DNA from: Paenibacillus sp. FSL M7-0420
Lineage (GTDB): Bacteria > Bacillota > Bacilli > Paenibacillales > Paenibacillaceae
Direction: 5' to 3'
DNA: 64,000 nt
NCBI RefSeq assembly: GCF_038002345.1
Contig: NZ_JBBOCJ010000001.1
Coordinates: forward strand, 434,001 to 498,000
The position numbers and the translations under genes are program-made. Shown here one piece after another: positions 15,368 to 39,450 of this stretch. The notes beneath the pieces were generated by a model. The model did no database searches and was not told where the DNA came from. It worked only from the letters and a program-made list of their open reading frames with translations. Position 1 is the stretch's first letter. Every line of letters begins with the position of its first letter.

Positions 15368-15406
15368 CCAACCTCATTCTGAATATGGAGCCTAACCTGT
15401 ACGCCC

Positions 15407-17449: not shown

Positions 17450-17468
17450 GAGGTGCTTTTTCTTTTAT
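17437..17468 (+). terminator. Rho-independent terminator
   Basis: AGCACC at 17437-17442 pairs with GGTGCT at 17452-17457 and is followed by TTTTCTTTTAT. It overlaps the end of the preceding gene. Confidence 0.8.
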
Positions 17469-17705
17469 TAGAAGAAGCAACCTTGATGGATTAAGGTAAA
17501 TATTACGCCTAATGAACTGTTGAAGTATGGACCCGCCACTATCTGCCAGACGAGCCAATTGTAGAACGCATGGTTATGACGGCCGATCTCCATATCTAAA
17601 AGATATAGTGCATTTAATTGAGAAAAATTTACATCACCTATATTCTGTTGACTGATAAGATGTGTTAAAATGATCAGAGTTAATTATGCTTAAGGGAGGG
17701 TAGGA

Positions 17706-19899: not shown

Positions 19900-21861
19900 A
19901 TGTTAAGGAAGTTAAAGTTATTAAGTGCATTATTGATTTTTTGTATGGCCAATCTGTTACCTGTCTTTCCTTTGACAGCAAGCGCGGCGGGTACAATTGT
20001 AAGCTATCCGTTACCGTCGGTCTATACCACGACCAGTCAATACACGGTAACAGCAGACTCTACCAATATACCGGTAATCGACACTTCAGAGGTATTTGTA
20101 AACTATAACTATTGTAATTTCTCTTTTTCAGGTACGACTACAATCACAATCACAGCAAGCGAGCCCATCAATACCTATAATATTTCTCCCAAAGCTTTGG
20201 GAATCACTGCAACTAAGAGCGGAAATACGCTGACCTTTACCCTTTCATCGCCAACCTATCTTATCGTTAAAATCAATAATCTCAAAGATCTGGTCATTGC
20301 GGCAGATGCGCTTGAAACCAATGTTCCGGCCTCATCCGGTACAGGGATTTACAATGTTAAAACCCAGTACGGTGCTGACAGTACCGGTGCCACTTTGGCG
20401 ACAACTGCCATACAGAATGCCATCAATGCGGCTAACGCAGCAGGCGGCGGTATCGTATACGTTCCAGCCGGAGTTTATAAGAGCGGTAACATTGTTCTAA
20501 AAAGCAATGTTTCGGTTTATCTGGCGGGTGGTTCTGTGATCAGGGGTTCAGGAAATCCAAGCGATTACACTACCCATTTTCATAAGAATTCTCTAAATAA
20601 GGATGGAACGTGGTTTATCTATACCGAAACCAATGCAAACAATATTAAGATATACGGCAGGGGAACGATTGACGGCAATGGCCATTATATGAGAAATACA
20701 AACAATTATTTGAACAATATTCTTGTCCCCTTGCAGTGCAGCAACTTCACAGTTGACGGCATAACCATCAGAGACAGCGGTGGCTGGGCTACAATCGTTA
20801 CCAGATCCAATAACGTAACCTTCCAGAATACTAAGCACTTTAACAATAATGAACTTGATTATGAAAATGATGCAATAGACATCCAGGAGAGCCAGAATGT
20901 ACTCATAAAGCACACTGTCGCCGTATCGGAGGATGACACGTACTCCTTTAAGACCTGGGATGTAGCTACTACGGATATAGCTGCAAACTGGCCTGGAAGT
21001 CCTGAACAGCAGTCAAATGTAGTGGTGGATGATGCTTTGGCCTGGAGCAGATGCGGAGCCTTCAAGGTTGGAGATGGAGTGAAACAGCTTCAGGATGGCA
21101 TCGTGGTTAAAAACTCTTTTGTATACAGATGCTGGCGTGCTTTAGCGGTAGGTCATCTCTATGGGACTCCGGCAGCACAGAACATCGTATTCGACAATAT
21201 AGATGTAGAAGGCTTCTGGCCAAGATCCGGTGTTCACTCCAGATGGTTTGATCTTTCTGCAAAAACCGGTCCGATCAAAAATGTGGTCTATAATAATATC
21301 AATTTACGCGCTCTGGGCGAGGTTTCAATAATGAAGGGTTGGAGTGACACCTCTACGGTCTCCGGAGTGACATTGAACAATGTCCGCGTCGGTGGAGTTG
21401 CGGTGAATAATTTGACAGATTTGAAAATAACAGATACGAACAGCTATGCGGCAGAGCCAAAATTCAACACATTGAAATTCGAAGCAGAAGGCTATAACCT
21501 TAGTTCCGGTGTTCTTTCCTATGAGTCAAGCACTGACGGCGGGCTGAATGTGGGTGCCGGGAGTAATGGCGACTATATCGCATTTAAAAATGTAGACTTT
21601 GGCAGTACAGCTAAAACAAGTATTGATATGAAGGTTGCCTCCGCTAATTCCGGCGGAAAGATCGAATTCCACTTGGATAGCCCTACAGGCCCTATGCTGG
21701 GTTCTTGGACGGCCGAAAGCACAGGCGGATGGCAGACATGGTCCCTCAAAAATATCCCGCTTACTGCCGGGACAGCGGTAGGAACCCATACGGTATATGT
21801 TACTTTTGTGAAGTCAGATTCAACCACAGTTGCCAATTTAACCTGGTTCCAGTTCAAATAA
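19900..21861 (+). CDS. Secreted right-handed beta-helix glycoside hydrolase (GH28-like) with C-terminal CBM6-like domain
   Basis: A 653-residue secreted enzyme with a signal peptide ending near ASA at residue 28. An N-terminal beta domain (30-135) is followed by a parallel beta-helix from about 145 (YNVKTQYGADSTGATLATTA, then PAGVYKSGNIVLKSNVSVYL) to 520. Catalytic-type acids occur in ENDAIDI and SEDDTYSF, with AVGHLYG further on, as in polygalacturonase-type GH28 and related families. Residues 525-653 resemble CBM6 (FEAEGYNLSSGVLSYESSTD, then GDYIAFKNVDFG). AAAGAGGTG precedes the ATG. The target is probably a plant or microbial polysaccharide; the exact family (28, 49 or 87) is not settled. 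Confidence 0.75.
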   Translation: MLRKLKLLSALLIFCMANLLPVFPLTASAAGTIVSYPLPSVYTTTSQYTVTADSTNIPVIDTSEVFVNYNYCNFSFSGTTTITITASEPINTYNISPKALGITATKSGNTLTFTLSSPTYLIVKINNLKDLVIAADALETNVPASSGTGIYNVKTQYGADSTGATLATTAIQNAINAANAAGGGIVYVPAGVYKSGNIVLKSNVSVYLAGGSVIRGSGNPSDYTTHFHKNSLNKDGTWFIYTETNANNIKIYGRGTIDGNGHYMRNTNNYLNNILVPLQCSNFTVDGITIRDSGGWATIVTRSNNVTFQNTKHFNNNELDYENDAIDIQESQNVLIKHTVAVSEDDTYSFKTWDVATTDIAANWPGSPEQQSNVVVDDALAWSRCGAFKVGDGVKQLQDGIVVKNSFVYRCWRALAVGHLYGTPAAQNIVFDNIDVEGFWPRSGVHSRWFDLSAKTGPIKNVVYNNINLRALGEVSIMKGWSDTSTVSGVTLNNVRVGGVAVNNLTDLKITDTNSYAAEPKFNTLKFEAEGYNLSSGVLSYESSTDGGLNVGAGSNGDYIAFKNVDFGSTAKTSIDMKVASANSGGKIEFHLDSPTGPMLGSWTAESTGGWQTWSLKNIPLTAGTAVGTHTVYVTFVKSDSTTVANLTWFQFK

Positions 21862-21976: not shown

Positions 21977-22006
21977 TTGACAATTGGTATATTTGCAATT
22001 TATACT
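21977..22006 (+). promoter_or_regulatory. Strong sigma-A promoter of the biosynthetic operon
   Basis: TTGACA at 21977-21982 and TATACT at 22001-22006 are separated by 18 bases. The first gene starts ~290 bases later, leaving a long leader. Confidence 0.75.
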
Positions 22007-22048
22007 AAACATATCCATTTACGGGTGTCATTCACCGTAGTGAAGTAG

Positions 22049-22092
22049 AGCATTTTCAGCAGGGCTTTATCGCTTGGGAAAATGCTTTTTTC
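22049..22092 (+). terminator. Leader terminator, possible attenuator of the biosynthetic operon
   Basis: AGCATTTTC at 22049-22057 pairs with GAAAATGCT at 22078-22086 and runs into TTTTTCT. It lies ~40 bases after the likely transcription start and 210 bases before the first gene. A small stem (ACGGGTG...CACCGT, 22021-22037) precedes it. Between 22093 and 22302 I see no gene and no clear second promoter. Confidence 0.6.
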
Positions 22093-22302
22093 TGCTTTTC
22101 ATTCCTGCACCGAGTCCTATTCCGCCTCCAGTATTAATTGCAGCATCTCTGCAAACAACTCTCTTAGTGCGAATGCACATTGTCCATCGTTTTGAGATTA
22201 TTCTCCTTCACACTCACTTTCACTTACTCATTACTGAATATCATCATGTATGCTATCCTCTCTAATCAGCCTTTCTAAAGATTATCTAACGGAGGAAACA
22301 GG

Positions 22303-22542
22303 ATGTCTAAATCAATAGAATCTATCTTGAGAGATGAAGTTTTTGCTGAGCTGGACATCGAGTATCCGGAAGATCCCGATACCCGTTTGCTGGACCTGGG
22401 GATCGATTCGGCAGGCTTCATCAAGCTTATTGTTTCAATGGAATCGAAGTTTAATATCTCGATCCCTGATGAGGATCTGTTGTTTGAGAAGTTCTCCACG
22501 GCTGGATTAATCCTTAATTATTTGGCCGGGAAAACGATATGA
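22303..22542 (+). CDS. Acyl carrier protein, first copy
   Basis: A 79-residue carrier protein. The phosphopantetheine attachment serine is in LLDLGIDSAGFIKLI, near residue 37. It is acidic, with the four-helix pattern and normal length. AACGGAGG precedes the ATG. Its stop overlaps the start of the adenylating ligase by four bases, so the ligase probably loads this protein. It is a small discrete carrier as in butirosin-type or NRPS-side-chain pathways, not a fatty acid ACP, judging by context. Confidence 0.88.
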   Translation: MSKSIESILRDEVFAELDIEYPEDPDTRLLDLGIDSAGFIKLIVSMESKFNISIPDEDLLFEKFSTAGLILNYLAGKTI

Positions 22543-24029
22543 TGACTATCATTCAGCGTTTATTCATGGAAGCTTGTGATCGCAAGGATCATATTCTCCT
22601 TCAAGATCTAAAGCAGCAGTGGACTTATGCGGAAGTGATGACAGAAGCATACTTGATTGCTCTATATATCCAAAAGAACTTTGAGCTTGAGGCCGGTAGC
22701 CATATAGCAGTATACACAAATAATGAGCCCTTGTTCATTACTGCATCGCTTGGCATTCAGTTCAGCGGTCATGTACTAATACCTGTTCCTTACTCGGCAT
22801 CCAAAACAGAGATTGAAAATATTCTAAATGCCAGTGACGCCAAGCTGGTTATCAGCAAATATGTACAGCCTGCGGGTTTAAATTGCCATATTCATTGGGT
22901 TACCGCTCAGGATTTCTCGCAAGAACCGATGCCTTCGTTTGAATCGATCTCGCTCACGAATTCGTCCGATCCCCATCTATGTGCGATTCTCCTTCCTACA
23001 TCGGGCACAACCGGAAAATCTAAAATCGTTATGTTATCCCATGAGAATGTATTAACGAATGCGTTGGCACATGGCGAAAAGGTTGGGTATACGGATCAAG
23101 ATTCGTTTCTTGTAACGATGCCCGTTCATTTCAGTTCTACGATTGTCTCCCAATTGATTTCTTGCATGCTATTTGGAACCCGAATTAGGCTGATCAGCTT
23201 GCCCTTGCTCCCGCGCACAGCGTTTAGACTGTTTCAGGATAAGGCAGTCACGGCATTCTCAGCGGTGCCTACGCAATTGATGCACTTTGTTTCCGATTAT
23301 CATCAGACAACCCACTGGAGTGCCTTTGATTCCATTGAATTTATTGTTATAAGCGGTGCGCCGATTCCCGCGAGATTAGTAGACCATCTTCAGACTGTAT
23401 TTCCCCAAGCGGACATTATTCAAACCTACGGACTAACAGAAGCTTCTCCGCGGGTGAGTATGATGGAACGGGGAGAACGAAGCCTGTCCTGTGGAACACC
23501 CGTCAGTGGCGTGTCTGTCCGGCTTGTTGACGGAGAAGAGAATGAGGTTATAGGACCTGCTGCTTCAGGAGAAATTTGGGTCAAGGGCCCGAATGTGATG
23601 CTCGGTTATTACAGGAACCCGGAGTTAACGAACGTTACCATTGTTGAGGGTTGGTTAAAGACAGGAGATTTGGGATATTGGAATGAATCAGGGTGTCTCA
23701 TCATCACAGGCAGAAAGAAAAATATCATTATATCCGGCGGTATCAATATCTATCCGGAAGAAATTGAGGAGTTTTTATATGGCTTGAACGAAGTGGAGGA
23801 AGTCATGGTTGTTGGTGTGCCCGATGATCTATTAGGCGAAGTACCCGTCGCATTGCTGAAAGTTTGTGAAGAATGTCTGGTTGATATAGATGCGCTGACC
23901 AAACATTGCAACTTGCATTTATCCTCGTATAAAGTACCTAGACAATGGAGGATTATAGATGACATTCCAAAAACAAAAACAGGAAAACTGGACAGGGCAA
24001 GCACGAAGCGCTTATTGCTAAAGGAATAG
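22539..24029 (+). CDS. AMP-forming acyl/aryl acid ligase (stand-alone adenylation enzyme)
   Basis: A 496-residue enzyme of the ANL superfamily that activates a carboxylic acid with ATP and passes it to a thiol. Visible core motifs are LLPTSGTTGKSKIVMLSHEN near 150, IQTYGLTEASPR, GEIWVKGPNVMLGYYRN, WLKTGDLGYW, GRKKNIIISGGINIYPEEIE and the catalytic Lys motif PKTKTGKLDR at the end. Translational overlap with the upstream carrier protein indicates the pair works together. The substrate cannot be read. The gene is AT-richer than the genes from 25228 on. Confidence 0.88.
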   Translation: MMTIIQRLFMEACDRKDHILLQDLKQQWTYAEVMTEAYLIALYIQKNFELEAGSHIAVYTNNEPLFITASLGIQFSGHVLIPVPYSASKTEIENILNASDAKLVISKYVQPAGLNCHIHWVTAQDFSQEPMPSFESISLTNSSDPHLCAILLPTSGTTGKSKIVMLSHENVLTNALAHGEKVGYTDQDSFLVTMPVHFSSTIVSQLISCMLFGTRIRLISLPLLPRTAFRLFQDKAVTAFSAVPTQLMHFVSDYHQTTHWSAFDSIEFIVISGAPIPARLVDHLQTVFPQADIIQTYGLTEASPRVSMMERGERSLSCGTPVSGVSVRLVDGEENEVIGPAASGEIWVKGPNVMLGYYRNPELTNVTIVEGWLKTGDLGYWNESGCLIITGRKKNIIISGGINIYPEEIEEFLYGLNEVEEVMVVGVPDDLLGEVPVALLKVCEECLVDIDALTKHCNLHLSSYKVPRQWRIIDDIPKTKTGKLDRASTKRLLLKE

Positions 24030-24042
24030 GGGGGACGAAAAG

Positions 24043-25113
24043 TTGAAGAATACAACTCAAACATTGCGCAGCGAAAGATTGCCGGTCCGTTATCCGATGA
24101 TTACAACCTATACGCAGCATGCCCATCTCTTGTCCATACTTACCCACTACGAGTGCGCACACCCATGGATATTCAGCAATTATATTCAATTATTTATTAA
24201 CAAAGATTATAAACATCATTGGGGAGATTTCTATTTCCCTCTGGCGTATGAGCTGCGGCCTTCGGAAGGTTGCAAATGGATTTCGACTCAGAAGATACAT
24301 AGAGATACTGTAACGACTAAATGGGACTCTGTTATTCATTTTATTATAGAAAATGTTAATGCCAATAACTATATCCATACCATGATCAATTATTTCTACG
24401 TGCCCCTAAGCGACCGATATCATAGACTCCAATTGCATCATGACATATTTGTGTATGGCTATGATTTAGATCGGGAGATATTGTATGTTTCCGATTTCTT
24501 TAAGAACGGCGTGTACAGTCAGGCTGAGATCTCATTTGCCGATTTCAATCTTGCGTTCAACACTAATCATCTAACAACCAATCATGATTATCTGAGAGAA
24601 ATGGTGTATCTGTATAAATTCAATGGCCAACATCAGGATAAATTCAGTGCAGATACCCTAGTGAATTCTATAAGAAATTATTTCACTAAGAGAACGCCGG
24701 AATATTGGGAGATGTTCAACTATGGGGGCGACAGGGATCATCTTGACTTCGGCATGCAAATATACACCACTCTATTTAATTATGTGAAAGAGACAGCGGA
24801 ACATAAGGCTATGCTTGATATAAGACCCTTTCATTTACTTTATGATCATAAGAAGATAATGACGCTGAGATTCAAGTATTTGTACGATCATCGGCATCTT
24901 ATTCATTTAAATCAAGAGCATATTGATGAATTCGCAGCTATTGAAGTGAAGGCGAAGATCCTTGTGAATGTAGCGTTTAAATATAATTTGACAAGGGATG
25001 TGAGTATTATAGACAGCTTACATACACTGATAACGAAGATAGAAAATGAAGAAGCCATCTTCCTTGAACGATGGCTGAAGAAGGTGAGCATTCCGGAGCC
25101 CATGGTGTTCTAG
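24043..25113 (+). CDS. BtrH-like/papain-fold family protein, first copy
   Basis: A 356-residue protein resembling the BtrH N-terminal family, whose founding member transfers an acyl group from a carrier protein to an aminoglycoside. The segment TTYTQHAHLLSILTHYECAH near residue 22 takes the position of the first catalytic helix, but there is no Cys at its start. HHDIFVYGYDLDREILYVSD near 145 has the His and Asp pattern of the fold. The C-terminal half is helical. GGGGGG precedes the start, which may be the TTG at 24043. The gene at 33491 is a distant paralogue that has a Cys in the matching place. Function is inferred from family and context. Confidence 0.55.
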   Translation: MKNTTQTLRSERLPVRYPMITTYTQHAHLLSILTHYECAHPWIFSNYIQLFINKDYKHHWGDFYFPLAYELRPSEGCKWISTQKIHRDTVTTKWDSVIHFIIENVNANNYIHTMINYFYVPLSDRYHRLQLHHDIFVYGYDLDREILYVSDFFKNGVYSQAEISFADFNLAFNTNHLTTNHDYLREMVYLYKFNGQHQDKFSADTLVNSIRNYFTKRTPEYWEMFNYGGDRDHLDFGMQIYTTLFNYVKETAEHKAMLDIRPFHLLYDHKKIMTLRFKYLYDHRHLIHLNQEHIDEFAAIEVKAKILVNVAFKYNLTRDVSIIDSLHTLITKIENEEAIFLERWLKKVSIPEPMVF

Positions 25114-25227
25114 ATATTACATATGGAGGGAGTGATGCTGGGATTATAATCGTTGCGATACAGCGTATTGAATAAGCTCTGCACAGTTCCTGCTGTTTAA
25201 CCAACCGTAAGCAATGGGGGGATCTTT

Positions 25228-26163
25228 ATATTCATTGTATTAACAGGAGTCGCAGGCTTCATCGGTTCCAACCTTGCCGAGAGGCTGCTGCGGGAAGGAC
25301 ATACCGTTATCGGGGTCGATAATTTTCTGACCGGGTCCCCTGTCAACATGGACAATCTCTTGCGGTCGCCAAATTTCAAGTTTATCGAGCATGATGTCAT
25401 TTATCCGCTTGCCATTGAAGACCCTGTCGATTGGGTGATGCATTTCGCAAGTCCTGCCAGCCCGCCCAAATATTTGTCCTATCCGATCGAAACGATGAGG
25501 GTCAACAGCGAAGGAACGATGCATCTGCTGCAACTGGCCAAAGAAAAGCAGGCTGCGTTCTTCTTGGCTTCAACAAGCGAGATCTACGGTAACCCAACCG
25601 TTCACCCTCAGCCGGAGAGCTATTATGGCAACGTGAATTCGATCGGATCAAGAAGCTGCTATAACGAAGCGAAGCGGTATGCAGAGGCGATCACCTACTG
25701 GATGAACAGAAAATACGGCATACCGGTAAGGGTCATTCGAATCTTCAATACATTCGGCCCGAAGATGGATTTATATGATGGTCGTGTCATTACCAATTTC
25801 ATTAATCAAATCATGTCCAAGAACAACCTTACGATTTATGGCGACGGCAGACAGACGAGAAGCTTTCAGTATATTGACGATTTGCTGGAAGGGATTATAA
25901 GACTGCTGGGCACCACATATGAACAGCCAGTCAATTTGGGGAATCCGCAGGAAGTCACCATCCTTGAAGTCGCCCAAGTATTGAAGGAGCTCATGAAGTC
26001 CAACGCGCAGATCGAGTTTCTCCCGCTGCCGGAAGACGATCCCAGGAGAAGGAAGCCGGATATTACCATTTCAAGGACGATTATGGACTGGGAACCGGCG
26101 ATCGGTTTGCATGATGCACTTGCTAGAACGATCCATTATTACCAGGGTCAATATATCCATTAA
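25228..26163 (+). CDS. UDP-glucuronate decarboxylase/epimerase-like SDR, no ordinary start codon
   Basis: A ~311-residue extended SDR close to UDP-xylose synthase. The Rossmann motif TGVAGFIGSNLAERLLREGH is at the N-terminus; TSEIYGNPTVHPQPESYYGN and the catalytic YNEAK (SRSCYNEAKRYAEA) follow, with FNTFGPKMDLYDGRVITNF and DGRQTRSFQYIDDL further on. A stop is at 25198-25200, and from there to the Rossmann motif no ATG, GTG, TTG or CTG is in frame. Candidates are ATA at 25228 (six bases after GGGGGG) or ATT at 25234. The first ATG in frame, at 25348, would delete the NAD-binding motif. It may supply UDP-pentose to the glycosyltransferase. Confidence 0.7.
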   Translation: MFIVLTGVAGFIGSNLAERLLREGHTVIGVDNFLTGSPVNMDNLLRSPNFKFIEHDVIYPLAIEDPVDWVMHFASPASPPKYLSYPIETMRVNSEGTMHLLQLAKEKQAAFFLASTSEIYGNPTVHPQPESYYGNVNSIGSRSCYNEAKRYAEAITYWMNRKYGIPVRVIRIFNTFGPKMDLYDGRVITNFINQIMSKNNLTIYGDGRQTRSFQYIDDLLEGIIRLLGTTYEQPVNLGNPQEVTILEVAQVLKELMKSNAQIEFLPLPEDDPRRRKPDITISRTIMDWEPAIGLHDALARTIHYYQGQYIH

Positions 26164-26176
26164 ACGGGAGGTACCT

Positions 26177-26428
26177 ATGCAAGAACAGATCATAGCGATG
26201 ATAAGCGAAATCAAGGACGACGCCCAGCTGGCAAACCGCTTGAACGAGCATTCCAGCATCATGGAAGACGGGGGGCTCGACTCGTTACAGCTAATTACTT
26301 TCCTATTAAAGGTGGAAGAGCGTTTCGGTATTGAAATCGATTTTGAACAATTTGACTTCGATTTTTTGGAGTCGGTCACGGCCTTTTGCAATTATATCTC
26401 GGAGCTGCAGAAGACAGCATCTGCATGA
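26177..26428 (+). CDS. Acyl carrier protein, second copy
   Basis: An 83-residue carrier protein with Ser in MEDGGLDSLQLITFLLKVEE, near residue 37. CGGGAGG precedes the ATG at 26177. It is only distantly similar to the first carrier protein (different helix 2 and 3 sequences), so the two probably carry different groups or serve different partners. Its stop overlaps a possible ATG of the next gene. Confidence 0.85.
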   Translation: MQEQIIAMISEIKDDAQLANRLNEHSSIMEDGGLDSLQLITFLLKVEERFGIEIDFEQFDFDFLESVTAFCNYISELQKTASA

Positions 26429-26475
26429 ACGATAGACGGGAAGCGCTTGATACCATGGATGGAGGAAGAGAATTT

Positions 26476-27591
26476 ATGGGTAAGCGGCAAGTAACGATTC
26501 TATGCTCGGGTTTCGGTCTGGGTTTCTATATTCCCGGCCTATTAGCTGCAAGCGTTTTCAAGGAAAGGGATATCGCGACGGAAGTGCTCGTGTTCGAAAG
26601 CTATTTGGAGCAAGACAAAAGGGATCATATTGCAGACAGCAGGACGGCGTACCACAATAATTTCGCACTTGCCAATTTTTCGGCGCGAATGCCGATGGAT
26701 ATCCGGAGCAGCATGGATTACGCCCAGGTTGAGCTATTGCTGGAGGCGTGGGCAGCGGAAGAGCGCTGCGAATTCATATCGCTATCCGGACACTGGGTCT
26801 ATATTCTGGATTTGTACAGGGAGAAGATGCTGCCGAGTCCAATTCATGTAGACCTGCTCTATGTCGATTCCGATCTGGCCCCGTCCTGGAAGAGCCTGAA
26901 GAAGTTTCATCCCCGCTATGACGAGCATTATTACAATGCTTGTCTCTATGACACCGGTAAGATGGCGATTCGATACGAAATCCCGGTTCTTCCGGGTGCG
27001 CCGCTGCCCTTCGAATCAAGGAAGCGGCGGCTTGTTGTTCATGGCGGCGGCTGGGGGATGGGCACTTATCAAAGTACAATTCCGGAGCTTGCCGGCCATA
27101 ACTATGGGCTGGATATCGTAGCTTACGACTGGAAGGAAGCGAAGCCCGATCCCGATTACCGGTATTGGATGAACGATCCTGAATGGTGTTCATGGGTGAA
27201 GAGCGGAAGCGGCCTGCACGAGTTCCCGCCATATATTGAAATAGCGGGAGAAGCTACGAATTCATACGCCGCTGAGGCGGATCATCATTGGTTATTTGAC
27301 GTCGCTTCGCAGGCAATGGCTATCGTGGCCAAGCCGGGAGCGGGCACATTGATCGACTCGCTTGCATCCGAAACCCCTCTTATTCTGCTGGAGCCGTTCG
27401 GCAGTCATGAGCTTAGCAATCTGGAATTGTGGGAGTCGCTTGGGTTCGGAATACGCTACGAGAAATGGCGGGAGATGGATTTTTCCGTAGATGTTCTTAA
27501 GGAGATGCATCAAGCGATCAAGAACAGACCCGGAGAACGGACGAATTATGTGGATCATTATTGTTCGAGAGTCGCGTTAATGAAGAGGTAA
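26476..27591 (+). CDS. GT-B-type glycosyltransferase-like protein
   Basis: A 371-residue protein that resembles UDP-sugar glycosyltransferases of the MurG/UGT fold. The N-terminal MGKRQVTILCSGFGLGFYIP is an unusual glycine-rich first loop. The C-terminal donor-binding region has VAKPGAGTLIDSLASETPLI and LEPFGSHELSNLELW. The start at 26476 is chosen for its GGAGGAAGAG site; an ATG at 26425 overlapping the carrier-protein stop is possible. It lies with a UDP-sugar enzyme and probably attaches a sugar to the product. The acceptor is unknown. Confidence 0.65.
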   Translation: MGKRQVTILCSGFGLGFYIPGLLAASVFKERDIATEVLVFESYLEQDKRDHIADSRTAYHNNFALANFSARMPMDIRSSMDYAQVELLLEAWAAEERCEFISLSGHWVYILDLYREKMLPSPIHVDLLYVDSDLAPSWKSLKKFHPRYDEHYYNACLYDTGKMAIRYEIPVLPGAPLPFESRKRRLVVHGGGWGMGTYQSTIPELAGHNYGLDIVAYDWKEAKPDPDYRYWMNDPEWCSWVKSGSGLHEFPPYIEIAGEATNSYAAEADHHWLFDVASQAMAIVAKPGAGTLIDSLASETPLILLEPFGSHELSNLELWESLGFGIRYEKWREMDFSVDVLKEMHQAIKNRPGERTNYVDHYCSRVALMKR

Positions 27592-27618
27592 GATTTCAAT
27601 GGCAGAAGGGGTTATGCG

Positions 27619-28707
27619 ATGAGTGTTAACAAATTGAGTGTCGCCCGGGATACGACAAGCTATCCGAGATGGATCGTCTTGCAGCTGCTCGAGGAGTGCA
27701 ATTTGCGATGCAAGATGTGCTATGAGTGGGGACTCGAAGGGCCCTACAAAAGCAAAAAAACATTAGCGCAGCTGGACCCCGATCTGATCAAAAAGATCAT
27801 CGCCGAGTGCAGCCCCGGCAAGCCGTATTACGATTTTTTCGGCGGCGAGCCGCTGATGTACCCTTGGCTGAGTGATATTCTCGCCATGATCAATCATTAT
27901 GGAAGCGTAGCGGACTTCCCCACGAACGGCACATTGCTCGAGCAGCATGCCGAGATGCTTGCCGAGAATGCGCCCAATAAAATTTGGGTGTCGCTCGACG
28001 GCCCTGAGACAATCAACGACAGGCAGAGGGGCAGAGGCGTATTCAAGAAAGTAATCAAGGGAATCGAGAAGCTCTATGAGCTCCGGCAAAGCAAAGGCAA
28101 GCAATTTCCGAAGCTGGGTGTATCCTTTATCATTACGCCCCTGAACTATATGTACGTCGAGGAATTTTTCTTCAAGCATATCGACTTGTCGATGCTGGAC
28201 CATATCAGCATGGAAGTGCAGCTCTATGCCACGGAAGAGCAGTATGACCAATATGTGGAGGTTCTTAGCGGGGAATTCGGCGTGCATGAAGCTCCTTATG
28301 CCAAGGGGATGGTGTGGCGGGACATCGGTTCGTTTAGCCAGATCGATATTCCGGAATTAACGAGACAGCTCAACAAGGTTAAGGCATATTGCTTGAGAAA
28401 CAGCATCCATGTGATCACCTATCCGAAGACGATAGATGAGGTGAATTTGCGCAACTATTTCTCGGGGCAATTCCATCAGATGGCGGATAAACGAAATCAG
28501 TGCTCCCTTCCATGGGTGTATGCGGAGATTACGGCAAGGGGCGATGTTTCGCCCTGCCATGCGTTCTATGATTTGACCTTCGGCAATGTGAATGAAGAGA
28601 ATTTGCTGGACATCTGGCGCAGTGACAAGTACAAAGAGTATCGCACGTATATGAAAAAAAATATGCTTCCGATTTGTACGGCTTGTTCAAGGTATTATAT
28701 CTACTGA
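27619..28707 (+). CDS. Radical SAM enzyme with twitch-type auxiliary cluster, first copy
   Basis: A 362-residue radical SAM protein. The cluster-binding CNLRCKMC is near residue 31 and the GGEP motif (FFGGEPLMYP) near 75. The C-terminal part has CSLPWVYAEITARGDVSPC, then about 40 residues to CTAC, i.e. four cysteines in the pattern of one auxiliary iron-sulfur cluster, as in BtrN or MoaA-type enzymes rather than the seven of a full SPASM domain. AGAAGGGG precedes the ATG. No RiPP precursor is seen nearby, so the substrate is probably a sugar or a carrier-bound acid. Confidence 0.85.
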   Translation: MSVNKLSVARDTTSYPRWIVLQLLEECNLRCKMCYEWGLEGPYKSKKTLAQLDPDLIKKIIAECSPGKPYYDFFGGEPLMYPWLSDILAMINHYGSVADFPTNGTLLEQHAEMLAENAPNKIWVSLDGPETINDRQRGRGVFKKVIKGIEKLYELRQSKGKQFPKLGVSFIITPLNYMYVEEFFFKHIDLSMLDHISMEVQLYATEEQYDQYVEVLSGEFGVHEAPYAKGMVWRDIGSFSQIDIPELTRQLNKVKAYCLRNSIHVITYPKTIDEVNLRNYFSGQFHQMADKRNQCSLPWVYAEITARGDVSPCHAFYDLTFGNVNEENLLDIWRSDKYKEYRTYMKKNMLPICTACSRYYIY

Positions 28708-28749
28708 TTCATGTGAATAACCTATTACGTTTAAGAAGGGTGTGTTGAT

Positions 28750-29928
28750 ATGAATCCGAAATCTGAGATTAAACATTCCGCAAAGGATTTGCAAATATTG
28801 AAACGTACCATCAGGAACACGATGGAAACCAAGCGGAATATGGAGAAAATAGCGGGTTACGCGACACCGTTGCCGGAGTCGGTCGGGATTAAACTGACGA
28901 ACCAATGCAACTTGCGCTGCAAGCATTGCTATCAATGGAACGATACCGGCTACCATCACTTCATGACACTGGAGCAGCAGCGGGAACAGCTCGACTACGG
29001 ACTGCTGGAGAAGCTGATCCTTGAGACGGAACCCGCCAAGTCGAGACTCTATATCTGGGGCGGCGAGCCGCTTGTATACAGCCATTTCGACCGTTTGGCC
29101 GATTTGCTTGAAGCCCATCCCCGGGAGACGACGATCTGCACGAATGCGTTGCTGATTGAGCGCAAGCTGGACGCCCTGCAGAGAATCTCCGACAACCTGG
29201 AGCTGCTCATCGCGCTTGATGGATTCGAAGAAGAGAATGATGCGCTTCGCGGCAAAGGGGTATTCAGCAGGGCGATAGATGCGATCCGGATGCTGGTCGA
29301 GCTGCGCAAGGAGAACAAATTCAGAGGCAAAATTTCGATCCATACTGTCGTTAACGATGGTATGACCGGCAAGCTGTATGATCTGCTGGACTTTCTGGAG
29401 GGCGTCGGCGTAGATCTGGTCATCGTCTGCTTCCCGTGGTACATCTCGGACGAATGCTCGCAGGGGATGGACGATTACTTCGACCAGAAGTTCGACTTCC
29501 TTCCGGCGAGCGGGCACAGGGGCGAACGAAGCTGGCACGCCTTTAACTACAAGCTCGATCCGGAACGTATCCCTGCTCTTATGAATGAGTTGGACCGGGT
29601 GAATCAACGGGTCTGGAAAATGCGCTTGCGCTACCAGCCGAATCTGGATCATGACCAGATCGAGGATTTCGTGCTCGGCAAAGAGGTGGAGGGCAAAGGG
29701 ACGATGAACAAGAAGTGCCTGGCGCTCTCGAACCGGATGGACATTACGCCCGATGGAACCATTATCGCGTGCAAATTCTTCAAGGAGTTCGAGATCGGCA
29801 AATTACATGAAGCTTCTGTACAGGAATTATGGCATAGCATGAACTATAGAAGAATAAGGGAAATGATGGACGAACGACTGACACCGGCATGTTCCAAGTG
29901 CAGTGTGTTGCATTTGCACGGTGTATAA
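28750..29928 (+). CDS. Radical SAM enzyme with twitch-type auxiliary cluster, second copy
   Basis: A 392-residue paralogue-like enzyme with CNLRCKHC near residue 53, IWGGEPLVYS near 100 and a C-terminal MDITPDGTIIACKFF region ending in CSKC. Again four auxiliary cysteines are visible (CLAL, CKFF, CSKC). An N-terminal 45-residue helical extension is absent from the other enzyme. AGAAGGG precedes the ATG. Two such enzymes in one operon suggest two successive radical steps or two sites on one scaffold. Confidence 0.85.
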   Translation: MNPKSEIKHSAKDLQILKRTIRNTMETKRNMEKIAGYATPLPESVGIKLTNQCNLRCKHCYQWNDTGYHHFMTLEQQREQLDYGLLEKLILETEPAKSRLYIWGGEPLVYSHFDRLADLLEAHPRETTICTNALLIERKLDALQRISDNLELLIALDGFEEENDALRGKGVFSRAIDAIRMLVELRKENKFRGKISIHTVVNDGMTGKLYDLLDFLEGVGVDLVIVCFPWYISDECSQGMDDYFDQKFDFLPASGHRGERSWHAFNYKLDPERIPALMNELDRVNQRVWKMRLRYQPNLDHDQIEDFVLGKEVEGKGTMNKKCLALSNRMDITPDGTIIACKFFKEFEIGKLHEASVQELWHSMNYRRIREMMDERLTPACSKCSVLHLHGV

Positions 29929-29960
29929 CGATTCTAAATTCACATAAATGAGGTGCGCAA

Positions 29961-30965
29961 GTGAGTATCATCCAGATGGAGGGTTTATCCAAAAGCTTCA
30001 AGTATTACGAAAAAGAGCTGGGGCTCAAAAAATCGCTCAAAAATCTAGTGAAGCGCAAATCCCTGATCAAAGAAGCGGTTAGCGATATATCGCTTGTGAT
30101 CGAGCAAGGCGAGATGGTCGGATTCTTGGGCCCGAACGGCTCCGGCAAAACGACTACGCTTAAGATGCTGTCCGGCATCTTGTATCCGACAAGCGGGCAA
30201 GCGACGGTATTAGGCTATGTCCCTTGGGAACGAAAGAAAGAATTCAAGATGCAGTTCTCGATCGTGATGGGGCAGAAATCGCAGTTGTGGTGGGATCTGC
30301 CGGCGAATGAATCGTTGTACCTGAACAAATGCATCTATGAGGTCGAGGATAAGCCCTACAACCTTGTCCTGGATGAGCTTACGGAGATGCTGGACGTTAA
30401 AGACCTGCTCAACATTCAGGTGCGGAGGCTTTCGCTGGGGGAACGGATGAAGATGGAGCTTATTGCGTCGCTTATCCACCGGCCCAAGGTGATATTCCTG
30501 GATGAGCCTACAATCGGACTCGATCTGATTTCGCAGAAGCGCATTCGGGAGTTCCTGAAGTATTATAACCAGCAGACGAAGGCGACGGTCATTCTGACAA
30601 GCCACTACATGGCGGATATTGAGGATCTGTGCAAACGGACGATCATCATCAATCAAGGGAAGATCGTATACGACGGCGATCTCCGGCGTGTGAACGAGCT
30701 GTTCCATGCCAAGAAGATCATCAAGCTGCAATTTACGGACGAAGTACCGAGGCAAGCACTAAGCGACTATGGCGCTATTACGCAACATGACGGCCTGAAT
30801 GCCGTCATGGAGATCGATAAGCATGATCTTCAGCGGCTCTCTAAGATGATGCTGGACCGGTTCCCGATCCTTGATTTCACAGTTGAAGATATACCTGTCG
30901 AGCGGGGCATCGAAAGCTTATATCAGAAAGATGGGGGCAGACATGAAAGCCTTGCAAAAGTATAA
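29961..30965 (+). CDS. ABC transporter ATP-binding subunit (DrrA/NatA-like)
   Basis: A 334-residue ATPase, GTG start with GAGGTG upstream. Walker A GPNGSGKTTTLK is near residue 57, the signature LSLGERMKMEL near 158 and Walker B VIFLDEPTIGLD near 180. The C-terminal extension is of the type seen in self-resistance exporters. It overlaps the first permease gene by 23 bases. It probably powers export of the operon's product. Confidence 0.92.
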   Translation: MSIIQMEGLSKSFKYYEKELGLKKSLKNLVKRKSLIKEAVSDISLVIEQGEMVGFLGPNGSGKTTTLKMLSGILYPTSGQATVLGYVPWERKKEFKMQFSIVMGQKSQLWWDLPANESLYLNKCIYEVEDKPYNLVLDELTEMLDVKDLLNIQVRRLSLGERMKMELIASLIHRPKVIFLDEPTIGLDLISQKRIREFLKYYNQQTKATVILTSHYMADIEDLCKRTIIINQGKIVYDGDLRRVNELFHAKKIIKLQFTDEVPRQALSDYGAITQHDGLNAVMEIDKHDLQRLSKMMLDRFPILDFTVEDIPVERGIESLYQKDGGRHESLAKV

Positions 30966-31752
30966 AAGGACGTATATCCTTGCGCTTCAGAATGCGATGG
31001 AATACCGGACCGATTTCCTGATGAGTATTATCAGCGGCGGCTTTATCATACTTGTCCAATGCTTCCTCTGGACAGCCGTGTTCCGCAGTTCGCCGCAAGA
31101 GATTATTAACGGCTATACGTATTCGCAGATCATCATATATTCCGTGTTGTCCGGCGTCGTCTCCAAGCTGGTATCTGCCGGCTTCGAAGGGGAGATCGCG
31201 AATGATATCAAGACGGGTGGGCTAAGCAAATTTATCGCTCAGCCCATTCATTATTTCAGCTATCGGATATGCAACTTCTTCGGCGGGAAAACGGTTCAGA
31301 CCGGGGTCGTCCTTGTCTTATTCGTCATCCTGATGACCGTGTTTATTCAGATTTGGGAGTTTCAGCTTAGAGCGGGGCAGATCGTGATGTTCCTGGTCAG
31401 TATTCTGTTCGGACTGCTCATCAACTTTCTGCTTTTTTACTCGATTAGTGCGCTTGCGTTCATCATTACTGAGGTTTGGGGCGTTTTTATTGCGTTCAAC
31501 CAAGGCGTCTATCTGCTCAGCGGAGCCATCTTTCCGCTTAATATTTTCGGAGATACGTTTGCCAGAATCTCCAGCTATTTACCGTTTCAATATGTCGTAT
31601 ACTTCCCGGTTAAGATCATCAATGGGAGCTTGGCGGTTCATGAGATCGTTATCGGGCTCCTCTTACAGGCGGTTTGGGTCATTGTGCTTATGATCATTGC
31701 CAAGTTGTCTTGGGATTCCGGGATGAAGAAATATGTAGCCGTTGGAGGTTAG
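30943..31752 (+). CDS. ABC-2 type permease, first (DUF990-like)
   Basis: A 269-residue membrane protein with six predicted hydrophobic segments (for instance DFLMSIISGGFIILVQCFLW and TGVVLVLFVILMTVF). GGGGGCAG precedes the ATG at 30943 inside the end of the ATPase gene. It forms a heterodimeric permease with the next gene. The product resembles exporter subunits of the YjjP/DUF990 type seen in antibiotic operons. Confidence 0.85.
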   Translation: MKALQKYKRTYILALQNAMEYRTDFLMSIISGGFIILVQCFLWTAVFRSSPQEIINGYTYSQIIIYSVLSGVVSKLVSAGFEGEIANDIKTGGLSKFIAQPIHYFSYRICNFFGGKTVQTGVVLVLFVILMTVFIQIWEFQLRAGQIVMFLVSILFGLLINFLLFYSISALAFIITEVWGVFIAFNQGVYLLSGAIFPLNIFGDTFARISSYLPFQYVVYFPVKIINGSLAVHEIVIGLLLQAVWVIVLMIIAKLSWDSGMKKYVAVGG

Positions 31753-31756
31753 ATCT

Positions 31757-32569
31757 GTGAGTATCCGCTTGAGTGAGATTCGAAAGCATGTACGTATGTT
31801 TTTTATTTTTGCAAAGAACAGCCTGGTCGGTTACATGGAATACAAAGCGAATTTCTACTCCGGTTTGATCATGGAGACCGTATTTCTGTTCACCAAGCTG
31901 ATCTATATCATCTTCGTTTACCAGCTGGGGATCGAAATTAATGGAATTTCTCCTGACCAGATGATGATCTTCACCGGGACCTATACGATTATGATCGCCA
32001 TCTATACAGGATTGTTTATGGATAACTTTTATAGATTCGCGGGCCATATCCGCAACGGGACGCTGGACTTGTATATGACGAAGCCGCTATCGCTGCAGTT
32101 CATGATTTCATTCCGGAACGTGAACTTCGCGTTTCCGATTCCGAACCTGATCGCCGGGATTACGATGATCGTAATAGCCTGGCAGCGGCTTGGCATCGAA
32201 CCAAGCTTCATCCACTTGGCCGGATATATCGGCGTGATCTTGAGCAGCACGATCGTGACCTACTCGGTGCTTCTGCTTCCGCAGATTCTCGCCTTCTGGA
32301 CGGTGAAGTCCGGTGCGATCTTCGACATACTGGATAAATGCTGGGATTTGAATAATATGCCGATGTACATATACCCCAAATGGCTGCGGAGAATAGGGCT
32401 GTATGTCGTGCCTATCCTGTTTATCACCAACATGCCGTCGGTTTATTTGATCGACCGCTTGGACTTGTTCCTTGGGATATGGATTTTTGTAGCTCCAGTT
32501 CTATCGCTTCTAGTGGTCAGGCTGTTCTGGAAGCTGGCCGTCAGACACTATGAGAGCGCCAGCAGTTAG
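31757..32569 (+). CDS. ABC-2 type permease, second
   Basis: A 270-residue membrane protein with six hydrophobic segments (KANFYSGLIMETVFLFTKLI, then IWIFVAPVLSLLVVRLFW near the end). The GTG at 31757 has GGAGG eight bases upstream; it starts four bases after the stop of the first permease gene. The two permeases differ in sequence, so the channel is a heterodimer. Confidence 0.85.
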   Translation: MSIRLSEIRKHVRMFFIFAKNSLVGYMEYKANFYSGLIMETVFLFTKLIYIIFVYQLGIEINGISPDQMMIFTGTYTIMIAIYTGLFMDNFYRFAGHIRNGTLDLYMTKPLSLQFMISFRNVNFAFPIPNLIAGITMIVIAWQRLGIEPSFIHLAGYIGVILSSTIVTYSVLLLPQILAFWTVKSGAIFDILDKCWDLNNMPMYIYPKWLRRIGLYVVPILFITNMPSVYLIDRLDLFLGIWIFVAPVLSLLVVRLFWKLAVRHYESASS

Positions 32570-32609
32570 AGAAATGCCAAAAGAACAAATTGGAGAGAAG
32601 GTGAAGCGG

Positions 32610-33449
32610 GTGAGCAGGATGGAGCGCAAGAGCTTTTCGCCGCAGACAGACACTACCAAGAAGCAGCTGCACAACGGGATCGAAATCTATCAGAACAACG
32701 AAGGCGAGACTGAGTTCCTTTACAACGAGATTTTCCGTAAGGAAATGTATTTCAAGCATGGGATTATGCTCCCGGATCATGGCACGGTCATGGATGTCGG
32801 GGCTAATATCGGCATGTTCACCCTGTATGTCAGCAGCAAGAGCAACTGCAGGGTATATGCCTTCGAGCCGCTGCCGCCGACGTTTGAGCTCTTGAAGATG
32901 AATACGGGCTCACTGCCTCGCGTAACAACGGTTAACGCCGGGCTGTCCAATGAGATCAAGGAAGCGGAGTTTGCCTATTTCCCTACGATGTCCACGGATT
33001 CAGTCCAGATCAAATACCGGGAGAACCACGATCAGGATCTCCGGTACGGGTTAATCAACCATTACAGAGATGACTTCGCCGACCCGGGAATGCTAAACCG
33101 GTTTGTCGATCATCTGATGTCGCCGAGGCTTCTGAATGAACAAATCTATCGGTGCAAGCTAACTACAATCTCTGAAATGATCCGCCATTACGCTCTGAAC
33201 CAAATTGATCTGCTCAAAATCGACGTGGAAAAAAGTGAATTTGAGGTACTGGAAGGCATCCTTCCGGAGGATTGGGGCAAAATCAGGCAAATTGTAATGG
33301 AGGTACACGGACTGGACGGAGAACAGATCAGCAGGCTTAAGAACATCTTCCGGACCAACGGCTTCAAGGTCTCGATCGATTACTACGAAGACTTGAATAT
33401 CCCAAATTACTATAATGTGTACGCGTTGAATCAAATGCAGGTAATATAG
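32610..33449 (+). CDS. FkbM-family methyltransferase
   Basis: A SAM-dependent methyltransferase of the FkbM type, about 279 residues, usually acting on hydroxyls of sugars or natural products. The SAM site VMDVGANIGMFTLYVSSKSN is near residue 72, followed by VYAFEPLPPTFELLK, and the late motif IDLLKIDVEKSEFEVLEG is typical of the family. GGAGAGAAGG lies eight bases before GTG 32610; ATG at 32550 or 32574 would add a short tail overlapping or abutting the permease gene. It is probably a tailoring step on the glycosylated product. Confidence 0.8.
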   Translation: MSRMERKSFSPQTDTTKKQLHNGIEIYQNNEGETEFLYNEIFRKEMYFKHGIMLPDHGTVMDVGANIGMFTLYVSSKSNCRVYAFEPLPPTFELLKMNTGSLPRVTTVNAGLSNEIKEAEFAYFPTMSTDSVQIKYRENHDQDLRYGLINHYRDDFADPGMLNRFVDHLMSPRLLNEQIYRCKLTTISEMIRHYALNQIDLLKIDVEKSEFEVLEGILPEDWGKIRQIVMEVHGLDGEQISRLKNIFRTNGFKVSIDYYEDLNIPNYYNVYALNQMQVI

Positions 33450-33490
33450 CCGTAATATTTCCAATAATTTTAGTATAGGAGAAATATTTT

Positions 33491-34534
33491 ATGGATGAAA
33501 TTGTTTCCCTGGACACCTTTCACCCCTTCGACGGCATGACCAAAATGTTTCCTCATCATAATTTTCCATACTTTAGTTGCGACTACAATTTGTTATTAAC
33601 GCTTGCCAATTATTTCGAAAAAGATGAGCTGCCGATTTTGAATAATGTCATTAGTATTTATAGATTTAATGAACAAAAAATACAAACAAGAGGATATTTC
33701 AAGTTAGAGGTGTTGGATCTTGAGGAGGGAGATCAGATCCTTAAGGAAATGGGCATCTCTACTCGCAGAAAATCTCCGGCATTAGATACGTTACAAGATG
33801 AAATCATAAACTCTATTTCTAATGGTCATCCGATTTCCATTTTTATTGATTTATTTTATCAACGCGGGAGAGACTTCTACTATAACAAAAAACATGGACT
33901 GCATCCTGTTTTTATCTATGGCTTCAATCTTACGAACGGGGAAATATACACGGTTGATGATATTACAGAATACAGACAATATTCTCTGCCATTTTCAGAA
34001 TTTAAATTATCATGCCTGACATCGGAACACGTAAAGATGCCAGACTACTTTTGGGAATATGCACTAGTGTCCCCCGCGGATCATGAGATCTTGAACTATA
34101 AGAAGTCAGCACACACAAACATCCATAAATATGTGGAGAATATGTTCAGGTATCAACATGAAATCACGAATGGTCTGAATAATATACTGTTGTTGGCAGA
34201 ACATTTCGAGCTCATTCTAACCAATGAAACGATTATAGAAACACTAAGCAGTACTATTTATAGAAAATGTTCTGAGAAATACAGGTTAAATACCCTCTAT
34301 AAATACAACCTTGATCATATCAGTGCAAAGGATACGCTTGACCTGTTATTGGACCAAATTATTAATGACTGGAAGGCAGTAAGGTTCTATTCGAATAAAG
34401 CCATCGTGTCCCAAACGTTCACTGGGGAAGTCATAGATAAGTGCATGGGTTTATTTACAAAAATATATAATAATGAAGTGCATTTTCATCATCAATTTTA
34501 TTTAATGTTAGAGGCTGCAAGATTGAAAAGCTGA
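33491..34534 (+). CDS. BtrH-like/papain-fold family protein, second copy
   Basis: A 347-residue relative of the protein at 24043 with TATAGGAGAA upstream of the ATG. Here FPYFSCDYNLLLTLANYFEK near residue 30 has a Cys at the start of the first helix, and HPVFIYGFNLTNGEIYTVDD near 142 gives His and Asp. So a Cys-His-Asp triad is possible, while the first copy lacks the Cys. The gene is markedly AT-richer than the block 25228-33449. It ends the operon before a terminator. It may release or transfer the acyl group held on a carrier protein. Confidence 0.5.
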   Translation: MDEIVSLDTFHPFDGMTKMFPHHNFPYFSCDYNLLLTLANYFEKDELPILNNVISIYRFNEQKIQTRGYFKLEVLDLEEGDQILKEMGISTRRKSPALDTLQDEIINSISNGHPISIFIDLFYQRGRDFYYNKKHGLHPVFIYGFNLTNGEIYTVDDITEYRQYSLPFSEFKLSCLTSEHVKMPDYFWEYALVSPADHEILNYKKSAHTNIHKYVENMFRYQHEITNGLNNILLLAEHFELILTNETIIETLSSTIYRKCSEKYRLNTLYKYNLDHISAKDTLDLLLDQIINDWKAVRFYSNKAIVSQTFTGEVIDKCMGLFTKIYNNEVHFHHQFYLMLEAARLKS

Positions 34535-34574
34535 ACCAACAATGTGAGTCAGTTAACCGGGTAGAGTATCAGAT

Positions 34575-34610
34575 AGACCGCATACCTTTGCGAGAGGGGC
34601 GGTCTTTTTG
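34575..34610 (+). terminator. Terminator of the biosynthetic operon
   Basis: AGACCG pairs with CGGTCT and TTTTTG follows. The same loop sequence (CATACCTTTGC) recurs in the terminator at 39125. Between 34611 and 34749 nothing is recognised. Confidence 0.75.
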
Positions 34611-39237: not shown

Positions 39238-39450
39238 AAGGCATCCCTCCCTTCTGAGAGAGGTAGCCGACCGGCCCTTTTAAGCCTATTCTATTGCTCA
39301 ATCAGTATAACATATCAAACGTTCTGTAATTACCTTATTTTGGAGATATTTTGACGTAAATACGTATTTACAATGTGTAAAGAGCAGCCCCCATTACGGG
39401 AGCTGCTCTTATTTACGCTTGTCCTTTCAGATAGCCATCAGAACGCAGGA

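Follow-up and report, generated by a model that had tools for sequence, protein, structure and literature searches.

The side chain of butirosin is made by a pathway comprising BtrG, BtrH, BtrI, BtrJ, BtrK, BtrO and BtrV, and AziU2/U3 belong to the azinomycin pathway. The closthioamide system (cta) of Ruminiclostridium cellulolyticum is described, in the accessible parts of PMC6772006, with two carriers, two loaders and the transferase CtaG; its AMP-forming (acetyl-CoA-synthetase-type) acid ligase and its ATP-grasp amino-acid enzyme are the authors' predictions. We analyzed a 64,000-nt stretch of the soil bacterium Paenibacillus sp. FSL M7-0420 (NZ_JBBOCJ010000001.1, positions 434,001 to 498,000, forward strand; hereafter the window), in which an operon had been noted whose parts recall butirosin side-chain chemistry, though on a different scaffold, and for which no described product was known. 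Full-text literature searches on the gene set likewise returned no described product, MIBiG-type collections lying outside their scope.

Organization of the operon

Thirteen genes at 22303 to 34534 run in a single direction with almost no gaps, between a promoter-like site and a terminator-like hairpin, and constitute a genuine operon. The features are as follows.

21977 to 22006, + strand: promoter-like TTGACA-18-TATACT (11 of 12 consensus matches, top of the scan)
22048 to 22096, + strand: leader hairpin with conserved loop and a U run behind it, resembling a terminator or attenuator (alignment and folding)
22303 to 22542, + strand: ACP1, discrete carrier protein (PF00550, E 7.7e-11)
22539 to 24029, + strand: LIG, AMP-forming acyl/aryl-acid ligase (PF00501, E 2.1e-65)
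24043 to 25113, + strand: H1, transferase-like protein of the papain fold (BtrH/CcbD/CtaG/AziU3) that lacks the nucleophilic cysteine (profile and model)
25228 to 26163, + strand: UDP-xylose synthase (UDP-glucuronate decarboxylase; best PDB matches), start probably AUA at 25228
26177 to 26428, + strand: ACP2, discrete carrier protein (PF00550, E 5e-08; longer frame 26111 to 26428)
26476 to 27591, + strand: GT, GT-B glycosyltransferase (model pLDDT 89.4)
27619 to 28707, + strand: RS1, twitch radical SAM enzyme (PF04055/PF13186)
28750 to 29928, + strand: RS2, twitch radical SAM enzyme (PF04055/PF13186)
29961 to 30965, + strand: ABC exporter ATPase (PF00005, E 1.2e-23)
30871 to 31752, + strand: ABC exporter permease 1 (PF06182, E 2.4e-23), true start perhaps further in
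31742 to 32569, + strand: ABC exporter permease 2 (PF06182, E 4.7e-40)
32550 to 33449, + strand: FkbM-family O-methyltransferase (PF05050, E 5.6e-18; TIGR01444, E 1e-24)
33491 to 34534, + strand: H2, BtrH-like acyltransferase with Cys30 and His138 (profile match)
34575 to 34609 (approximate), + strand: terminator-like hairpin GACCGC...GCGGTC and T run (found by inspection of the sequence)

All genes named in the original prediction were found on the same strand, and Pfam upheld most of their identities: PP-binding for the two carriers, AMP-binding for the ligase, NAD epimerase for the sugar gene, radical SAM/SPASM for RS1 and RS2, FkbM for the methyltransferase, and an ABC ATPase with two ABC2_membrane_6 permeases that make up the expected three-gene exporter. 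Also as predicted, none of the 13 genes encodes an NRPS/PKS megasynthase or, by Pfam, a 2-deoxystreptamine enzyme, and there is little room for a RiPP precursor gene inside the operon, its widest internal gap being 114 nt. Three starts were corrected, that of ACP2 to 26177, that of GT to 26476 and the frame start of the UDP-xylose synthase to ∼25228 (non-ATG). The dN/dS values against seven relatives were 0.02 to 0.37, with a single outlier of 0.86 (ACP1 versus L050). Glycan-active genes (GH28 and GH10-SLH) flank the operon.

The promoter scan returned 31 sites overall compared with 23.7 in shuffled sequences. When 25 upstream regions were aligned (window counted), 11 had the TTGACA element at this position and 14 did not. 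The leader hairpin is represented by 13 distinct sequences (window counted) with 90% mean column identity; four of these, when folded, gave z values of -2.25 to -3.48 relative to shuffles. The element is single copy in the genome, with no further copy (regulon) at up to 3 mismatches, and an Rfam search of the leader gave no score near a gathering threshold. Control by LoaP in the dfn system is described in the accessible parts of PMC12691694 with a UNCG-type hairpin. By comparison with that description, no UNCG-type loop was seen in the leader, so no LoaP link is claimed. Relatives differ by many leader insertions and deletions in the part of the alignment that was read, and thus no conserved short ORF is apparent. 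The conserved hairpin may offer a switch for waking the operon. The terminator-like hairpin is not in the list of the hairpin scan, for which the loop limit was 8.

A family of related clusters

The set had been presented as an unusual combination, but the genome comparison shows that it does not stand alone: judged by sequence, the operon belongs to an extensive family of clusters. Of 394 Paenibacillaceae genomes, 154 gave a GT match at E ≤ 0.001 (8 of these weak), and the 27 other genomes whose GT match ranks best all have an orthologous cluster. Across 113 loci (a count that includes L109, which has no listed match place and no cluster gene), the usual neighbors of GT are a carrier protein, an ATP-grasp ligase and twitch radical SAM enzymes; in 11 of these loci the stretch covered is free of radical SAM genes.

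Because all 27 other loci keep GT, RS1, RS2, ACP2, FkbM and the exporter trio, and fewer keep the remaining genes, the gene set is not a product of chance. RS2 and the ABC ATPase gene are broken into pieces in L070. ACP1, LIG and H1 are inherited together and are absent from 3 of 28 loci, and the UDP-xylose synthase gene is absent or fragmentary in 6 of 28; these absences suggest that neither the sugar nor the acid is a fixed part of the family. In 11 of 27 relatives the rumA gene precedes ACP1 by 0.7 to 2.5 kb; it was not seen as a close upstream neighbor in the other 16 within the stretch covered, and in L065 a rumA match lies ∼16 kb downstream of ACP1. We considered a freely mobile operon, which the shared rumA neighbor makes unlikely for that part of the set.

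Carrier proteins and their loading enzymes

The modifiable Ser36 of ACP1 is kept in all 24 relatives having the gene, and Ser36 of ACP2 in 27/27. The top NCBIfam match of ACP2 is DltC, below the cut-off (33.4 of 68 bits). The closest solved structures to LIG are a fatty-acyl-CoA synthase, feruloyl-CoA synthetase, and succinylbenzoyl-CoA and coumaroyl-CoA ligases; its Lys483 is kept in all relatives read, and the P-loop position Lys160 is lysine in 18 of 24.

An ATP-grasp gene adjoins ACP2 in 22 of 28 loci (that of L087, missed by gene calling, was recovered by tblastn) and is absent from the window and five relatives. Relatives such as L064 have a complete two-loader set of AMP-ligase, ATP-grasp enzyme, carriers and papain-fold transferase, in contrast to the window. 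The nearest ATP-grasp proteins in the same genome show 42% and 40% identity and lie in two sister clusters, followed by a weak 28% match. A single loss of the gene is neither backed nor contradicted by the tree, in which the six loci without it form no single supported clade and nodes around the window have supports of 0.45 to 0.62. Each of the six genomes without the gene has one or more further GT matches, versus 7 of 22 with it; since the genomes are related, this excess is no more than a lead for trans-complementation by sister clusters. No PLP decarboxylase of the BtrK type is encoded among the 13 genes, and the family is present in 21 of 113 loci.

Two papain-fold proteins

Both proteins predicted to be BtrH-like match BtrH_N below its curated cut-off (E 0.0089 and 0.0079), and the assignment is supported by profile comparison (hhalign probabilities of 97.2 for H1 and 96.3 for H2) and, for H1, by the predicted fold as well. 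H2 has the Cys/His pair, and H1 has the fold but not the catalytic cysteine. Cys30 and His138 of H2 are present in 25/25 relatives with a match, and H2 is homologous to a family having one member above the BtrH_N cut-off. The gene is broken in L062, and the H2 match is absent in L075 and L076, both of which have a distant BtrH-like gene near the cluster end.

The H1 model has a papain-like N-terminal fold with a helical C-terminal part. At the place expected for the nucleophile, where the first core helix begins, H1 has Thr21-Thr22-Tyr23 in 24/24 relatives; Tyr23 aligns with the BtrH-family cysteine by hhalign, with a possible offset of one residue, and precedes model helix 24-33. With the nucleophile absent, a transferase activity of H1 is suggested by fold and context. 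H1-like domains form the C-terminal end of three NRPS proteins, and a plasmid search with H1 gave only two distant matches.

Sugar genes, radical SAM enzymes and exporter

The predicted UDP-glucuronate-decarboxylase-like enzyme was borne out as a UDP-xylose synthase, with best PDB matches at E ∼1e-103 and the next kind of enzyme at 6e-34; it matches UDP-glucuronate decarboxylase 1 (4gll, 2b69) at E 5e-103 over residues 3-307 of 311. The Y-x3-K pair (Tyr145, Lys149) is present in 21 of 24 relatives matched, the other three being fragments outside these positions. Its start codon is probably AUA, AUU or AUC, as read from the sequences, a feature common to 22/22 loci. Pfam gave no match for GT, but its predicted model has a GT-B fold, in agreement with the glycosyltransferase expected, and its five best PDB matches include SnogD, YjiC and CalG3 (E 2e-9 to 3e-8, TM ∼0.5).

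RS1 and RS2 contain seven cysteines (CxxxCxxC + C-x17-C ... CxxC) that are kept in 27/27 relatives and, for RS2, are invariant in a 22-member family alignment (22/22), confirming two twitch-type radical SAM enzymes. BtrN has the same twitch cysteine spacing, and the match of this family to BtrN is confined to profile positions 313-383, the twitch part. Their NCBIfam matches include many peptide maturases, all those shown falling below the cut-off.

Proposed pathway and alternatives

We propose, with roughly even confidence, that the operon makes an exported small metabolite of the amide/ester type, best read as a methylated, radical-SAM-tailored acyl-aminoacyl xyloside, built on free carriers and NRPS-free. 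Its substrates, linkages and order of steps are what we infer from the gene content. LIG would activate an acid, probably an aryl or acyl carboxylic acid, and load it on ACP1. ACP2 would carry an amino acid, its loader in most relatives being presumably the ATP-grasp ligase; as the operon has no such gene, ACP2 would be loaded from elsewhere (by an ATP-grasp paralogue of a sister cluster) or by LIG itself. H2 would move an acyl group by a covalent Cys-His route, as BtrH, CtaG and CcbD do, and the cysteine-free H1 may perform direct carrier-to-carrier transfer or act as an acceptor-binding partner. GT would attach a sugar, in the simplest case xylose supplied as UDP-xylose by the operon's own synthase. 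The sugar or the aminoacyl portion might then undergo radical oxidation or epimerization by RS1 and RS2 (twitch chemistry like that of BtrN), FkbM would O-methylate the molecule and the product would leave through the ABC exporter. More tentatively, and with confidence well short of even, we suggest thiotemplated glycoside assembly, in which a carrier-tethered amino acid or acyl-amino acid is glycosylated, remodelled by the twitch enzymes, and then released or joined to the acyl group of the second carrier by papain-fold transferases, one of them cysteine-free.

In a butirosin-like alternative, H2 would transfer a carrier-bound acyl or aminoacyl group, formed as for butirosin, onto a separate glycoside made by GT, with radical SAM oxidation resembling that of BtrN. 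The Cys/His pair of H2, the seven conserved radical SAM/twitch cysteines, the BtrN match in the twitch part and the ATP-grasp and PLP decarboxylase genes of related loci are in keeping with such a route; nevertheless, the 13 genes include no aglycone gene (cyclitol synthase, aminotransferase), the ATP-grasp gene is missing from the operon and the BtrN match is limited to those profile positions, so we regard this route as rather doubtful. Envelope decoration would have the exporter, FkbM and GT act on a glycolipid or polymer, with the carriers providing an acyl or aminoacyl ester in the manner of DltC/DltA. We hold it to be unlikely: the DltC match of ACP2 and the flanking GH28 and GH10-SLH genes speak for it, but that match is under the cut-off, no membrane O-acyltransferase is encoded among the 13 genes, and we know of no DltC/DltA-like envelope system that uses twitch radical SAM enzymes.

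The absence of the ATP-grasp gene from 6 and of a methyltransferase gene from 4 of the 28 loci, the broken genes of L070 and L062 and the non-ATG start of the UDP-xylose synthase might indicate a decaying operon that has lost ATP-grasp and methyltransferase genes and is partly dead. However, dN/dS is low in the remaining genes (0.05 to 0.25 for ACP2), the carrier serines, radical SAM/twitch cysteines, H2 Cys/His and LIG Lys483 are kept in all relatives read, and the unusual start codon is shared by all loci compared, which leaves decay distinctly improbable. Peptides are often the substrates of SPASM/twitch enzymes, and the sub-threshold maturase matches of RS1 and RS2 would suit a radical-SAM RiPP cluster with an overlooked precursor; yet the narrow internal gaps and the leader offer no evident place for one, and the carriers and ligase would be left unexplained, so that we give this reading very little credence.

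If the thiotemplated glycoside assembly suggested above is correct, a carrier-based, NRPS-free route to glycosylated amides exists in Paenibacillus, Clostridia, cyanobacteria and at least one actinobacterium. Clusters of the family are common and undescribed in the literature searched in full text, which suggests an overlooked class of NRPS-free metabolites. They would also offer new enzymology, with GT and radical SAM chemistry beside carrier proteins and a CcbD/CtaG-fold protein that has no cysteine nucleophile and is found as a terminal domain of NRPS proteins too. The AUA/AUU/AUC start of the UDP-xylose synthase is, in addition, a probable case of a conserved unusual start codon in metabolism.

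Comparison with known systems

The individual enzymes depart from their closest relatives in several respects. The UDP-xylose synthase differs from 4gll/2b69 in its non-ATG start and its place in a biosynthetic operon, and RS1 (362 aa) and RS2 (392 aa) are longer than the BtrN chains (269-270 aa). AziU2/U3 is the top Foldseek match of H1 (E 2.1e-9) but AziU3 serves a different pathway, and CcbD, a lincosamide amide synthase, shares the H1 fold at 9% identity; its entry titles name a C19S mutant, and the Thr-Thr-Tyr of H1 falls at the estimated place of the CcbD nucleophile.

With butirosin the operon shares a carrier protein, a BtrH-like acyltransferase (H2) and the twitch cysteine pattern. 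It differs in having a second carrier with an AMP-forming ligase and, among its 13 genes, no ATP-grasp enzyme (BtrJ), decarboxylase, monooxygenase or cyclitol synthase. Of the likeness to butirosin, the carrier, ligase, BtrH-type and BtrN-type (twitch) parts are borne out; one of the BtrH-like proteins is cysteine-free, and the ATP-grasp gene of most relatives is missing. The operon also differs from closthioamide in having no ATP-grasp gene and, by Pfam, no thioamide enzyme; a GT, radical SAM enzymes, a UDP-xylose synthase and FkbM are not named among the cta parts in the accessible text of PMC6772006. As far as that text extends, the two systems are alike in their two free carriers and AMP-forming ligase and in the match of the CtaG fold to H1. 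For its assembly logic, the two-carrier scheme of closthioamide appears to fit better than that of butirosin and would be the closest precedent.

Borders and content of the operon

The original prediction placed a carrier-protein/BtrH/radical-SAM operon at 21977..34610, and this was confirmed: its borders coincide with a promoter-like site and a hairpin, and the 13 genes between them all run in the same direction.

21977, promoter-like site (11/12 matches)
22048-22096, leader hairpin followed by a U run
25228-26163, UDP-xylose synthase gene
end near 34609, hairpin with a T run, read directly in the sequence

The gene order is ACP1 (a discrete carrier protein), LIG (an AMP-forming ligase), H1 (a BtrH-like protein), UDP-xylose synthase, ACP2 (the second carrier), GT (a GT-B glycosyltransferase), RS1 and RS2 (twitch radical SAM enzymes), three ABC exporter genes, FkbM, and H2 (also BtrH-like). 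Compared with seven relatives, dN/dS was low for nearly all operon genes, with values of 0.09-0.37 for the first 40 codons of the UDP-xylose synthase; the exception was ACP1 versus locus L050 (0.86). The leader hairpin occurs once in the genome, and its stem and loop are conserved in 13 distinct sequences, including that of the window; the four leader sequences that were folded scored better than most shuffles. This element looks like an attenuator of the operon. The upstream TTGACA element is common to only 11 of 25 aligned regions.

The window occupies C1:434001-498000 of a 7.67-Mb genome, to which the closest named genomes are those of Paenibacillus. A GH28-CBM6 gene (19900-21861) and a GH10-SLH gene (34903-38946) lie on either side of the operon; 4 of 27 relatives also have GH10-SLH downstream of the cluster. 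The region that separates dagK-rumA from the operon holds a phage-like or integrative element (3400-19341) containing an integrase, an HTH protein, a DUF927 protein, small ORFs, and a Beta_protein (PF14350); in 11 of 27 relatives, ACP1 is preceded by rumA at a distance of 0.7-2.5 kb. A BsrG-family small RNA (39048-39299, minus strand; 81.9 bits, E 1.8e-17) belongs to a type I toxin-antitoxin kind.

Start codon of the xylose synthase

The window's frame for this UXS-type enzyme contains no ATG, GTG, or TTG from the upstream stop to codon 40. In all 22 full-length loci (21 relatives plus the window) the aligned first codon is ATA, ATT, or ATC, preceded by a G-rich stretch. Nine of these loci have no usable ATG, GTG, or TTG ahead of codon 32, and the upstream candidates in the other 13 are unconserved in position. 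From these alignments we infer that the enzyme probably begins at an AUA, AUU, or AUC codon. The exact codon was picked from spacing; most loci have a second isoleucine codon two codons upstream, so the start could be there instead. A Staphylococcus aureus study describes initiation at AUA and AUU, accompanied by extended Shine-Dalgarno motifs, with reporter output of ∼10% to 30% of that of AUG (PMC13009471).

Enzymes and variable modules

The GT model (pLDDT 89.4) has a GT-B fold resembling SnogD, YjiC, and CalG3. Because the nearest matches of LIG are fatty-acyl-CoA, feruloyl-CoA, succinylbenzoyl-CoA, and coumaroyl-CoA ligases, its predicted substrate is more likely to be an aryl or an acyl acid than one of the amino acids usual in NRPS systems. 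The radical SAM family profile matched BtrN in the twitch part only. H1-like domains also occur at the C-terminal end of NRPS or PKS-NRPS proteins (L192:10510-19788, L193:808-10584, L194:1180-10980).

Modules were compared among 28 loci, comprising the window and 27 further genomes whose GT matched best (63-93% identity). ACP1-LIG-H1 occur together in 25 and are jointly missing in three. An ATP-grasp gene lies between ACP2 and GT in 22 and is absent from six (the window, L050, L051, L052, L059, and L061); a second methyltransferase is absent from four (the window, L052, L059, and L061). Six loci (L053-L057, L073) lack the xylose synthase or retain only fragments of it, and H2 had no match in two (L075, L076). 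ATP-grasp relatives in the window's genome are the proteins of two sister clusters, at 42% and 40% identity, plus a single weak match. Two cyanobacterial loci (L174, L183) and one from a rhodospirillales bin (L178) have a radical SAM gene and an AMP-ligase, with no ATP-grasp gene within the stretch examined, which suggests that an AMP-ligase can replace the ATP-grasp enzyme.

Distribution of the cluster family

Searching GT against 394 Paenibacillaceae genomes (E<=0.001) gave matches in 154, eight of them weaker than 1e-10. We collected 60 stretches (59 around GT matches plus L109, without a listed match), the two sister clusters, and 78 named loci drawn from the best 80 of 209 relatives; removing 27 duplicates from these 140 left 113 loci, a set biased to GT loci because all except L109 were found through GT. 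Among the named hosts of those best 80 relatives are Paenibacillus, Cohnella, Gorillibacterium, Ruminiclostridium, Clostridium, Lachnospiraceae, Thermoflavimicrobium, Kibdelosporangium, Nostoc, Crocosphaera, and Chamaesiphon.

Genes within 10 kb in the 113 loci
Radical SAM family: 102 (none in 11, within the stretch examined)
ATP-grasp family: 100 (101 counting L087)
Carrier, of two groups counted: 85
BtrH-like protein: 82
Exporter ATPase: 78
Gfo/Idh/MocA oxidoreductase: 50
PLP decarboxylase: 21
UDP-glucose dehydrogenase: 13
Radical SAM, ATP-grasp, carrier, and BtrH-like together: 55

The commonest order was carrier-ATP-grasp-GT-radical SAM (44 of 93 called GT genes). The sister clusters, at C1:4838000-4857000 (L044) and C1:2272000-2291000 (L045), contain carrier, ATP-grasp, GT, radical SAM, and Gfo/Idh genes.

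Comparison with known systems

The operon parts belong to known families; full-text literature searches aimed at the gene set found no description of their combination or its spread. We file the cluster as a carrier-based NRPS-free assembly that is a member of neither the butirosin nor the closthioamide type, because some defining features of each are absent or incomplete here. In closthioamide biosynthesis, as described in PMC6772006, the predicted loaders of two carriers are the ATP-grasp CtaD and the acetyl-CoA-synthetase-type ligase CtaI; CtaG is proposed to transfer the acyl group from one carrier to the other. Most relatives of the window's cluster have the same three functions, together with a GT, twitch radical SAM enzymes, methyltransferases, and an exporter, and on this basis we favor NRPS-free carrier assembly. 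The window's cluster has no loader for its second carrier; ACP2 might be loaded by LIG or by the enzyme of a sister cluster. We read the product as a glycosylated, oxidized, methylated acyl-aminoacyl amide or ester, with the substrates and order of steps as we infer them.
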